The notes beneath the pieces are model-generated. The model was not told the origin of the DNA. It did no database searches and was given only the letters and a program-made list of their open reading frames with translations. The position numbers and the translations under genes were made by a program. A stretch of 64,000 bases of DNA from Thalassospira lucentensis (GTDB taxonomy: Bacteria > Pseudomonadota > Alphaproteobacteria > Rhodospirillales > Thalassospiraceae), in assembly GCF_001613805.1 (NCBI RefSeq), contig NZ_LPVY01000001.1, positions 1 through 64,000 on the forward strand. The letters are read 5' to 3'. This document shows, piece after piece, positions 5,023-7,808 of the stretch. Positions within the stretch are counted from its first letter, which is position 1. Every line of letters starts with the position of its first letter.

Positions 5023-5781
5023 CTATTGAAACGGTAAAACCGTTTGAAACTCAAACGGATCAATGTCCGGATCGTTCCCGCGCTTTTCATCAAACTGCGC
5101 CTTGGCATAGGTCAGGAACTCATCCTTGCTGATCATTTTGTCAGAATTGGCATCAACACCGCCAAACAGCAATTCCAGCCGCCGGCTTTCGGTCCGCAGC
5201 CGCTGCCGGTTGGCCTCCGGCGATCCCGGCAATGCCTCGACCGCGGCAAATTCACGCCCCACCAGAACACTATCGCCATTGATATCACGCCGCCGAAACA
5301 TCCAGCTCGCATAGGACGCGGCCTCGTCGGCACTGATGCGCGCATCGTGATCCATATCGATTGGATGATATTGCTGGCGATACATTGTCACCTGTTCCGG
5401 GATGCCGGTTGCAGCAGCGCTCGCCGCATTCTGCTTTGCCAGCGCCTTGGCAATCGCATCCTCAAGCCCCGGAATGGCCGCCGCACCCGTGCTGCCGGTG
5501 CCGGCACCCGTTGGCACACCCTCGCCATCCTCAAGCCCGCCCAACCCGTTAAGCGCACCAAGCCCGCCAAGCCCGAACTGCCCCATCAATTGCGGATTGT
5601 TCTGCAATTGCTGCATGATCAGGGGCAATAACTGGCGCATTTCCGGCGATGTGACCTCGGGCGAAATCGTCGCACTGCCCTTGTCCAACTGAAGGCTTTG
5701 GGCATGCACCGGCGCCCGAATGCCAAAAACTGCCACCAGGGCACAAGTCATTAACAATATGGCAGCTTTTTTCCGCAACAC
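5023..5781 (-). CDS. Exported EF-hand calcium-binding protein
   Basis: A protein of about 252 residues with a signal peptide (basic VLRKKAA start, hydrophobic LLMTCALVAVFGI, then VHAQS cleavage-like site). Three EF-hand-like loops follow in the C-terminal half: DMDHDARISADE, DINGDSVLVGRE and DANSDKMISKDE, the last a textbook 12-residue loop. The middle is rich in Gly, Leu and Asn. Probably a periplasmic or secreted calcium binder of unknown role. Reading can be extended to 5865, but AAGGGA sits just ahead of GTG 5781 and TTG 5778, and only these starts place the signal peptide at the N terminus. It is divergent from mraZ across a 520-base gap. Confidence 0.75.
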   Translation of the reverse strand: MLRKKAAILLMTCALVAVFGIRAPVHAQSLQLDKGSATISPEVTSPEMRQLLPLIMQQLQNNPQLMGQFGLGGLGALNGLGGLEDGEGVPTGAGTGSTGAAAIPGLEDAIAKALAKQNAASAAATGIPEQVTMYRQQYHPIDMDHDARISADEAASYASWMFRRRDINGDSVLVGREFAAVEALPGSPEANRQRLRTESRRLELLFGGVDANSDKMISKDEFLTYAKAQFDEKRGNDPDIDPFEFQTVLPFQ

Positions 5782-6005
5782 TCGTTCCCTTCGCCTGTCC
5801 TGACGCCGCCCCGCATCAGGATCACCATCATAGCATATCAGCACGGACCGGATCGCGGGCAACATTGCCCCATCAAAACCGATTAACGATCAAATGCCAA
5901 TCCCCGAAGCCGGGATCGGTCCCCAAACCGGATCATCGCCATGTTGCGTGAAATGCCTCTCCGTCATCCCGTCACATCCCATGCAGGACAAAAATGGTCT
6001 GCGCA

Positions 6006-6051
6006 TGGATTTGCATGGGCGGGCATGGGGACGCGTGTGGGTTTTGATGGG
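6006..6051 (+). promoter_or_regulatory. Forward array of MraZ-type TGGG boxes
   Basis: TGGA at 6006, TGGG at 6016 and 6026 and TGTG at 6036 fall in a 10-base phase; two further TGGG at 6038 and 6048 are also 10 bases apart but shifted by 2. MraZ is known to bind TGGGN boxes separated by 5 bases. The array lies about 250 bases before mraZ and could serve mraZ or the divergent EF-hand gene. Confidence 0.5.
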
Positions 6052-6154
6052 CGAGAGCCGAAAATCACCCGGAAAACGGTTACTTTTGGCCCATTTGCCC
6101 CCCATTCCGATATGTCCCAAAGCCGCAGGAAACCACATTATTACCCTATTTGAT

Positions 6155-6198
6155 CCCATCAATTCCCATTGACCCCCATCAAAACCCATGGTACCCCA
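6155..6198 (-). promoter_or_regulatory. Five-unit MraZ operator array
   Basis: CCCA (TGGG on the minus strand) occurs at 6155, 6165, 6175, 6185 and 6195, an exact 10-base period over five units. This is the arrangement described for MraZ autoregulation (TGGG boxes with one helical turn spacing), but with five units instead of the usual three or so. It lies 106-149 bases before the GTG start of mraZ, where it could control dcw transcription. Confidence 0.75.
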
Positions 6199-6303
6199 TA
6201 ACTAGGCACATTTACGGTGTCATGCGGGGCATATCCATTTCGACGCGGAAACTGATCATTCTCTGGCGGTTCGAAATGGGTTTTTGATCAGGGGAATGGC
6301 GAA

Positions 6304-6825
6304 GTGCTGTTCACAGGAACGCACATTCACAAGCTGGACCGAAAAGGGCGCGTCTCCGTGCCCAAGCGGTTCCGTGCGACCCTGGAACGCGAAACCTTCG
6401 CTGGCATCTATCTGTATCAATCCCACAAGGAAGCCGCCCTTGAAGGCTGTGGCGAAAGCCACATGGACCGCATTGCCGCGTCGATTGACGAACTGGCCAT
6501 GTTCTCGGACGAGGCAGATGACCTTGCCGATACCATTCTTGGCGCATCCCACATGCTGCCGTTTGACGGCGAAGGCCGCATCATTCTGCCCCCGGAACTG
6601 ATCGAATTCGCCCGCATCGAAGATCAGGTCGCCTTTGTCGGCCGTGGCCGCACCTTCCGCATCTGGAACCCGGAAATCTTCAAACCGCTACAGGATGCAA
6701 GCCGCACCCGCACCTTCAATCGCGGATCGACCCTCAAACTGAAACCGGCATCCGATTTCGCGCCGGGCAGCCGCCCCGCTGCCCCGACCGGCGAAATCGC
6801 CCCGGATGAAGAGGGAGACGCGTAA
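6304..6825 (+). CDS. mraZ: Transcriptional regulator MraZ
   Basis: A 173-residue protein with two AbrB-like MraZ repeats: HKLDRKGRVSVPKRFR near residue 9 and MLPFDGEGRIILPPEL near residue 82, each with the family D-x-x-GR core. MraZ forms ring-like oligomers, binds TGGG repeats before its own gene and represses the dcw operon. The C-terminal tail is longer than in the about 150-residue E. coli protein and is Pro/Asp-rich. The GTG start is supported by AGGGGA 8 nt upstream. It is the first gene of the dcw cluster, and its TAA shares one base with the rsmH ATG, implying coupling. Confidence 0.95.
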   Translation: MLFTGTHIHKLDRKGRVSVPKRFRATLERETFAGIYLYQSHKEAALEGCGESHMDRIAASIDELAMFSDEADDLADTILGASHMLPFDGEGRIILPPELIEFARIEDQVAFVGRGRTFRIWNPEIFKPLQDASRTRTFNRGSTLKLKPASDFAPGSRPAAPTGEIAPDEEGDA

Positions 6826-7808
6826 TGAGCATCCATGACCTCAGCTTCGCCACAGGCGATGGCCCGCACAAACCGGTGCTGTTGCGCGAAGTTCTCGATG
6901 CCCTGTCCCCCGGGGCGGGCGAGATCATGGTGGACGGAACTTTTGGCGCGGGTGGATATTCCCGCGCCATTCTCGATCATGCGGACTGCGAACTTTACGC
7001 CATCGACCGCGACCCGACCGCCGTTGCCACCGGCAAGGCCATGGAAGCCGATTATGCCAATCGCTTCCACATGGTCGAAGGCTGCTTTGGCGATATGGGC
7101 TCCCTTCTGCCCGCCGCTGGCGTGGATCAGGTGGACGGCATCGTCCTTGATATCGGTGTATCTTCCATGCAGCTTGATCAGGCCGACCGCGGATTTTCCT
7201 TCCGCGAAGACGGGCCACTGGATATGCGCATGTCGATGTCCGGCCCGACCGCGGCCGATTTCGTCAATACCGCCGATGAAGAAGACATCGCCAATGTCAT
7301 CTATCGTTATGGCGAGGAACGCGCATCGCGCAAGGTCGCGCACAAGATCGTTGAAATGCGCGCCGAGGCACCCTTTGAAACCACCCTGCAACTGGCCCGC
7401 GCGGTCCGCTCTGTCGTGCGCAAATCCAAGGACGGCATTGATCCCGCCACCCGCACCTTCCAGGGGCTTCGCATTTACGTCAATGACGAGCTCGGCGAAC
7501 TTGAACGCGCCATGCAGGCGGCTGAAAACCTGCTCAAACCGGGTGGCCGTCTGGTGGTCGTGACCTTCCATTCGCTCGAAGACCGCAGTGTCAAAACCTT
7601 CATGAAGGAACGCTCGGGCGATCCGTCGAAAATGTCGCGCCGCCTTCCGGGCGAGCCAGAGGTCGCAACCCCGACCTTCACCACCATCACGCGCAAGGCC
7701 GTGACCGCGCAAAAGGACGAACTGCGCGCCAATCCGCGTGCGCGATCGGCCAAACTGCGTGCGGTTGCCCGTAACGAACAGCCCCCAATGACAGGAGGTC
7801 GCAAATGA
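6825..7808 (+). CDS. rsmH: 16S rRNA (cytosine1402-N4)-methyltransferase RsmH
   Basis: A 327-residue SAM-dependent methyltransferase that modifies C1402 N4 in the decoding centre of 16S rRNA. The entry HKPVLLREVLDAL, the SAM loop VDGTFGAGGYSRAIL (about 37-51) and the block VLDIGVSSMQLDQADRGFSF are typical of MraW/RsmH. FQGLRIYVNDEL and VVVTFHSLEDR mark the catalytic and C-terminal core. It overlaps mraZ by one base and ftsL by four (ATGA), so translation is coupled in the dcw operon. Confidence 0.96.
   Translation: MSIHDLSFATGDGPHKPVLLREVLDALSPGAGEIMVDGTFGAGGYSRAILDHADCELYAIDRDPTAVATGKAMEADYANRFHMVEGCFGDMGSLLPAAGVDQVDGIVLDIGVSSMQLDQADRGFSFREDGPLDMRMSMSGPTAADFVNTADEEDIANVIYRYGEERASRKVAHKIVEMRAEAPFETTLQLARAVRSVVRKSKDGIDPATRTFQGLRIYVNDELGELERAMQAAENLLKPGGRLVVVTFHSLEDRSVKTFMKERSGDPSKMSRRLPGEPEVATPTFTTITRKAVTAQKDELRANPRARSAKLRAVARNEQPPMTGGRK

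Follow-up and report, generated by a model that had tools for sequence, protein, structure and literature searches.

Facing arrays of putative MraZ boxes at the mraZ promoter of Thalassospira: conservation, helical spacing and a proposed repression loop

Few bacterial transcription factors are as conserved as MraZ. In the window analyzed here, a stretch of 64,000 nucleotides from Thalassospira lucentensis, two arrays of putative MraZ boxes, facing each other, lie between mraZ and a divergent EF-hand-like gene (Table 1). The initial annotation of this region had described five CCCA boxes in exact register and, about 105 bases upstream, a TGGG array of opposite polarity with a 2-base slip. Reading of the sequence bore out both descriptions: the proximal boxes follow one another upstream of mraZ at exact 10-bp steps, the distal boxes at steps of 10, 12, and 10 bp, and the distance is 107 bp from the start of the last distal TGGG to the start of the first proximal CCCA, or 103 bp between the boxes. 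The assignment of the arrays to MraZ is likewise supported, as the single MraZ gene found in this 4.55-Mb genome lies downstream of them.

The encoded MraZ is 99% identical in the near named relatives T. xianhensis and Thalassospira sp. MCCC 1A03138. From its position and sequence, we take the ORF that follows mraZ to be an rsmH (mraW)-like gene. The start of the divergent EF-hand-like gene is uncertain; by eye, a GTG or TTG codon near 5781 precedes a stretch resembling a signal peptide.

Table 1. Coordinates of the box arrays, predicted promoter elements, and neighboring genes in the window.
Feature	Position	Strand	Description
Divergent EF-hand-like gene	5023..5865	-	ORF; Pfam EF-hand_7, E 1.3e-4, 22.7 bits, below the family cut-off of 30
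Weaker outward distal boxes	5995..6009	+	TGGT at 5995 and TGGA at 6006; one mismatch each
Distal MraZ-box array (putative)	6016..6051	+	TGGG at 6016, 6026, 6038, and 6048; polarity opposite to the proximal array
Interval between arrays (proposed loop)	6052..6154	.	Contains CCCA at 6090, 6101, and 6116
Proximal MraZ-box array (putative)	6155..6198	-	CCCA at 6155, 6165, 6175, 6185, and 6195 (five boxes, reading TGGG on the minus strand)
Predicted -35, TTGACC	6169..6174	+	In the spacer between proximal boxes 2 and 3
Predicted -10, TACCCC	6192..6197	+	17 bp after the -35; overlaps proximal box 5
mraZ	6304..6825	+	GTG start at 6304; 173 aa; Pfam MraZ, E 7.1e-17, in two stretches
rsmH (mraW)-like gene	6825..7808	+	ORF immediately 3' of mraZ

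The proximal array and the predicted dcw promoter

In 5,000 dinucleotide-preserving shuffles of positions 5866-6303, the longest run of CCCA at 10-bp steps was three boxes (reached in 3 shuffles), and none reached four or five. A chance origin of the proximal array was thus ruled out. All five boxes are retained exactly in each of the 29 Thalassospira genomes compared, together with TTGACC and, 17 bp on, TACCCC within the array; the distance from the array to the mraZ start codon is also fairly steady (148-150 or 163-165 bp in 29/29).

To place this array in context, we drew a sample of 80 genomes from the same order, of which 70 had MraZ, and read 66 loci from 65 non-Thalassospira genomes. 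Sixty-five loci entered the box count (L086, with degraded boxes and only single exact ones, was excluded) and 61 were retained, each with at least three exact boxes: three in 16 loci, four in 19, five in 16, and six in 10. The proposal that five boxes make an unusually rich array did not hold, given that 61/65 order-level loci have three to six exact boxes, and the array is better described as a putative promoter operator. Inside the array zone, TTGA[CTA] was found at 56/61 order loci and was followed, 17 bp beyond the -35, by TATCCC at 44/61, which indicates that the boxes enclose the predicted -35 and -10 hexamers of the dcw promoter. In the window, these hexamers predict a transcription start near 6204.

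The imperfect boxes of these arrays, tallied when they carried one mismatch, are mostly of the form xCCA, in which the outer G is altered (29/32 in the order, 9/9 in the class, and 10/12 in a second group of loci described below); the order-set variants are ACCA, TCCA, or GCCA. Since imperfect boxes nearly always change the same outer base, the conserved core of the box is TGG, as expected for a site read by a protein. These counts also bear on the idea that the G-runs form G-quadruplexes controlling transcription, a mechanism published for the mraZ promoter of S. aureus (excerpt of PMC11796246). Repeats of TGGG-N6 are necessarily repeats of GGG-N7, five of them consecutive here. Nevertheless, we consider this reading very improbable, as intact G-runs are not conserved: loss of the outer G breaks the run and keeps TGG. 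Furthermore, G-quadruplexes need no held spacing between facing arrays, and would leave both the TGG core and the facing polarity unexplained.

The proximal array resembles the MraZ operator that Eraso and colleagues are said to have described in 2014 at E. coli mraZ, in a study cited by PMC8475190. In both cases, TGGG boxes at 10-bp steps lie directly upstream of mraZ, whose own product would read them. In E. coli K-12, the sense strand carries three boxes, all no more than about 45 bp from the ATG, whereas the alphaproteobacterial boxes lie on the other strand and enclose the predicted -35 and -10; the E. coli sequence examined, 335 bp in length, showed no second array. In Mollicutes, the MraZ site is (AAAGTGKN3)3, according to excerpts of PMC5282649 and PMC8475190. 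This MraZ-bound site shares with the arrays its direct repeats, its 10-bp steps, and its position at the mraZ promoter, but differs in box sequence and consists of one array, with no distal partner mentioned in these excerpts.

Direct repeats at about 10-bp steps, a position upstream of mraZ, and conservation in relatives (for the distal array within the genus, but at 0/61 order loci) all agree with an MraZ operator. The proximal array is, therefore, most simply seen as an ordinary MraZ promoter operator to which MraZ is predicted to bind, and as such it would belong to a known kind; the facing pair of arrays would be a new variant. Acting as an autoregulatory operator, it would let MraZ, bound along the boxes, exclude RNA polymerase, because the -35 and -10 hexamers lie inside the array.

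The distal array in Thalassospira and beyond

The distal array is less striking by composition. The window holds eight TGGG-N6-TGGG pairs, six of them at these arrays, against a shuffle mean of 3.75, and 19 of the 5,000 shuffles gave four or more TGGG inside a 36-bp stretch. The distal array thus appears only moderately unlikely by composition, and the case for it rests on conservation and comparison. The triple pattern TGGG-N6-TGGG-N6-TGGG occurs in the whole 4.55-Mb genome at this site only (three overlapping matches), and the same pattern read backwards gave no match in the whole genome.

With the first proximal CCCA as the zero point for offsets, 26 of the 29 Thalassospira genomes have TGGG at -117 and also at -107. 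The exceptions are L003, with the array 1 bp closer, L013, with two boxes at -126 and -116, and L004, in which the array lies 11 bp, or about one helical turn, outward. Further out, a TGG core is present at -127 to -129 in 28/29 genomes, and at -137 to -139 also in 28/29. The interval between the arrays has diverged: ungapped comparisons among five deep clades give identities of 0.25-0.52 (68 pairs; clades A and B, at 0.65-0.66, are excepted), and 18 of 98 interval columns are identical among four deep clades, in scattered positions. Upstream of the proximal array, these four clades share no identical runs longer than the TGGG and ATGGG at -117 and -108. The comparison of related mraZ upstream regions that the initial annotation had proposed as a check on the register accordingly came out in its favor for both arrays (proximal 29/29, distal 26/29).

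Beyond the distal array, one or two further CCCA boxes, frequently CCCAtcaaaaCCCA-like, make up a third group (5978-5981 in the window); many Thalassospira loci, from several clades, have CCCA or a CCCA pair near -177 to -166.

These data argue that the distal array is real, and that its spacing to the proximal array has been held within the genus while the interval sequence diverged. It should be noted that part of this constancy may reflect a low indel rate, as the distance to the mraZ start is also steady. The extreme form of this explanation, in which the distal array is a relic or a chance cluster of boxes without present function, its spacing preserved by the rarity of indels, can draw on that steadiness and on the 19 shuffles with four TGGG in 36 bp. 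We regard it as highly doubtful, considering that TGGG at other single interval offsets averages 0.05 of 29 loci (maximum 2), as against 26/29 at -107 and -117, and that the array recurs in other orders.

A different possibility is that the two arrays are independent operators without contact, the proximal one repressing mraZ and the distal one repressing the divergent EF-hand-like gene. Seen from the minus strand, the distal boxes are oriented to this gene as the proximal boxes are to mraZ, and the gene was detected by tblastn at all 29 Thalassospira loci. However, independent operators need no fixed spacing, and the spacing is held while the start region of the gene moves by about 200 bp across the genus, from about -236 to -435 (start codons are uncertain, and two rows were extrapolated from internal matches). 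In addition, no TTGAC-type -35 was seen in the distal spacers of the clades inspected by eye.

Outside the genus, TGGG at -107 or -117 was found at none of the 61 order loci, and the promoter, therefore, usually works without a distal array. Three loci have inverted pairs elsewhere between -300 and -14, none of them at a related position: L088 (whose genome also yielded L124), L099, and L122. Within one genus of the order, three species carry a CCCA pair of direct polarity at -97 (L117) or -108 (L119 and L121), about one helical turn apart; as these loci have a direct-polarity pair instead, facing polarity may not be required, or may not be the sole solution.

Several order loci show, by eye, RNase P-like 3' ends upstream of mraZ, where Thalassospira has the EF-hand-like gene. 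Of six loci given to Rfam, five (L141, L163, L164, L178, and L192) had RNase P RNA in the stretch around mraZ; this was the only RNA named in the six loci, and no known leader RNA was among the results. The MraZ array of L141, L163, and L181 is separated from the MraZ motif by about 350-370 bp, a distance suggestive of a long leader. According to an excerpt of PMC5089854, R. sphaeroides has a leader of 268 nt with UpsM, an sRNA; a promoter of the UpsM type could carry an MraZ operator. A term search of this R. sphaeroides dcw paper found none of "binding site," "repeat," "TGGG," or "autoreg."

We then searched 385 alphaproteobacterial genomes for the two-array pattern. With a gap of 80-110 bp, three genomes matched: two Thalassospira and G281, a member of another family, in which the site lies upstream of its own mraZ with the identical 107-bp spacing. 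A looser pattern with a gap of 98-128 bp matched six genomes (the two Thalassospira, G281, G375, G185, and G299), and all six sites proved on reading to be located at mraZ; the other 379 of 385 lack this pattern, which is strict and misses imperfect arrays such as that of G484. A gap of 67-97 bp gave no match among the 385 genomes, a gap of 129-159 bp matched only this genome, at the same site through other boxes of the arrays, and the backwards controls of the two-array patterns gave none among the 385.

For the class, 46/71 loci were kept for the distal TGGG count and 45/70 for the DnaA and box counts; 15/71 gave no MraZ motif and 6 no array. Counts were restricted to loci with at least three exact boxes and sufficient upstream sequence. 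Two groups share L155, and the labels L194 and L207 refer to the same genome.

The second group comprises 18 loci from two alphaproteobacterial orders: four from the order of G281 (six genomes, with G452 and G485 left out because they had no usable upstream sequence) and 14 from the order of G185 (18 genomes, 4 without an MraZ found). In this group, L218 offered only 130 bp upstream of the array. At 11/18 loci, two exact boxes form a distal pair within -100 to -180, and the remaining 7/18 have no such pair (one for want of sequence). The inner box stands at -107 in G281 and G375, -106 in G487 and G488, -118 in G497, -127 in G489, -128 in G185 and G490, and -129 in G299 and G484; these 10 of the 11 distal pairs are in phase, and that of G499, with its inner box at -113, is out of phase. 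The box steps in G489 (10-12-10) match those of the distal array in the window. A phase test with a 10.5-bp period over 10 lineages, which are not fully independent, gave R = 0.74 and a Rayleigh p of about 0.004; with Thalassospira removed, and with the same reservation about independence, R was 0.71 and p about 0.011. The order promoter motif TTGA[CTA] was found at only 2/18 second-group loci; in its place, some loci of this group have TTG slightly further upstream, by a few bases.

In a quick MraZ tree, Thalassospira grouped with the rows of its order (support 95) and the second group stood on its own (99); long branches were flagged, including the one joining the second group. This tree gave no support to the idea that the mraZ locus had passed between Thalassospira and the second group by transfer. 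Since the tree sets the second group apart from Thalassospira, our analysis favors a separate gain of the distal array over transfer.

The second group also bears on the two independent operators. The nearest sizeable upstream ORF is divergent in several loci with a distal array (e.g., G375 and G185), and order relatives without the array lack the divergent arrangement of Thalassospira in several cases, having an RNase P RNA-like sequence upstream instead; both observations agree with a role for the distal array at the divergent gene. On the other hand, in G281 and G484 the array is present and the nearest sizeable upstream ORF runs in the same direction as mraZ, so a distal array needs no divergent gene. 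Taken together, we consider independent operators conceivable but rather unlikely. The earlier suggestion that the arrays may also control the EF-hand-like gene describes a possible role, but such control is not needed to account for an array whose distance to the mraZ operator stays constant as the start region of the gene shifts.

A loop between the two arrays and its possible meaning

Our preferred explanation, which we put forward as somewhat probable, is that MraZ oligomers join the promoter operator to a helically phased auxiliary operator, so forming a short repression loop. With its opposite polarity, the distal array would serve as an auxiliary MraZ operator for the same promoter. Successive MraZ subunits would read successive boxes of an array with 10-bp steps, and the two facing arrays would share the same rotational sense once the intervening DNA folds back. 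One MraZ ring, or a pair of rings, could then hold both arrays, so that the interval of about 100 bp closes into a small loop that strengthens repression. From the boxes, their overlap with the predicted promoter, the spacing and phase, and the recurrence of the pair, all read from sequence, we infer that MraZ would bind each array, bridge the two, and affect expression.

The requirement of a short loop for helical phase would explain why this phase is conserved: the distance of 107 bp in the window is the same, or longer by about one or two helical turns, in other lineages. The initial annotation had suggested multimer binding or looping, and the held, helically phased spacing fits this suggestion, which stays a model of how the arrays may work.

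LacI and GalR of E. coli use a main promoter operator and an auxiliary operator about 90-115 bp away, in an arrangement sensitive to helical phase, and bind palindromic sites as dimers joined into tetramers. The mraZ arrays follow the same plan of main and auxiliary operator; here, however, rows of direct repeats would be bound by a ring, and looping is what we propose. As in those systems, there are two operators for one regulator at one promoter, as judged by box sequence, with a helically phased spacing (26/29 exact in the genus and 10/11 in phase in the second group). A sequence match found in this analysis was PDB entry 1N0E, which we take to be an MraZ ring. This match, together with the MraZ octamer mentioned in an excerpt of PMC5282649, suggests that MraZ forms rings. 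Neither a second facing MraZ array nor MraZ looping was reported among the matches listed in the open-licence literature.

An alternative that also involves both arrays is a larger MraZ-DNA wrap without looping, in which the arrays are occupied by separate rings, stacking or spreading over the DNA, and more MraZ is concentrated locally through the distal array. Extra boxes between or beyond the arrays in some species, such as the three CCCA of the interval and the one at 5978 in the window, would suit this explanation, as would the CCCA or CCCA pair near -177/-167 in Thalassospira of several clades. Yet the intermediate boxes are not retained between clades, TGGG occurs in at most 2/29 loci at any single interval offset, and spreading needs no facing polarity. 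We therefore judge a wrap of this kind to be unlikely. If, as in the loop model, one oligomer bridges both arrays, insertions of half a helical turn should break repression, and insertions of whole turns should not.

In the second group, an exact DnaA box, TTATCCACA, was observed at -58 to -60 from the first proximal box at 17/18 loci, and at -71 in the remaining one (DnaA-box loci: L208, L209, L211, L207, L155, and L214-L226, from two alphaproteobacterial orders). This position is near the middle of the proposed loop. Exact DnaA boxes within 200 bp upstream were found at 0/29 Thalassospira, 1/61 order, and 6/45 class loci, two of the six being second-group genomes.

A broader proposal, which we offer tentatively, is that an MraZ loop on two facing rows of direct repeats has arisen more than once at the dcw promoter, and that DnaA could sense or set the loop, thereby coupling the initiation of replication to the transcription of division genes.

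For the order studied here, the comparison yields a consensus of the dcw promoter in which boxes of a polarity opposite to that of E. coli enclose TTGAC-N17-TATCCC. The loop, if true, would represent an operator design based on rows of direct repeats rather than on palindromes.
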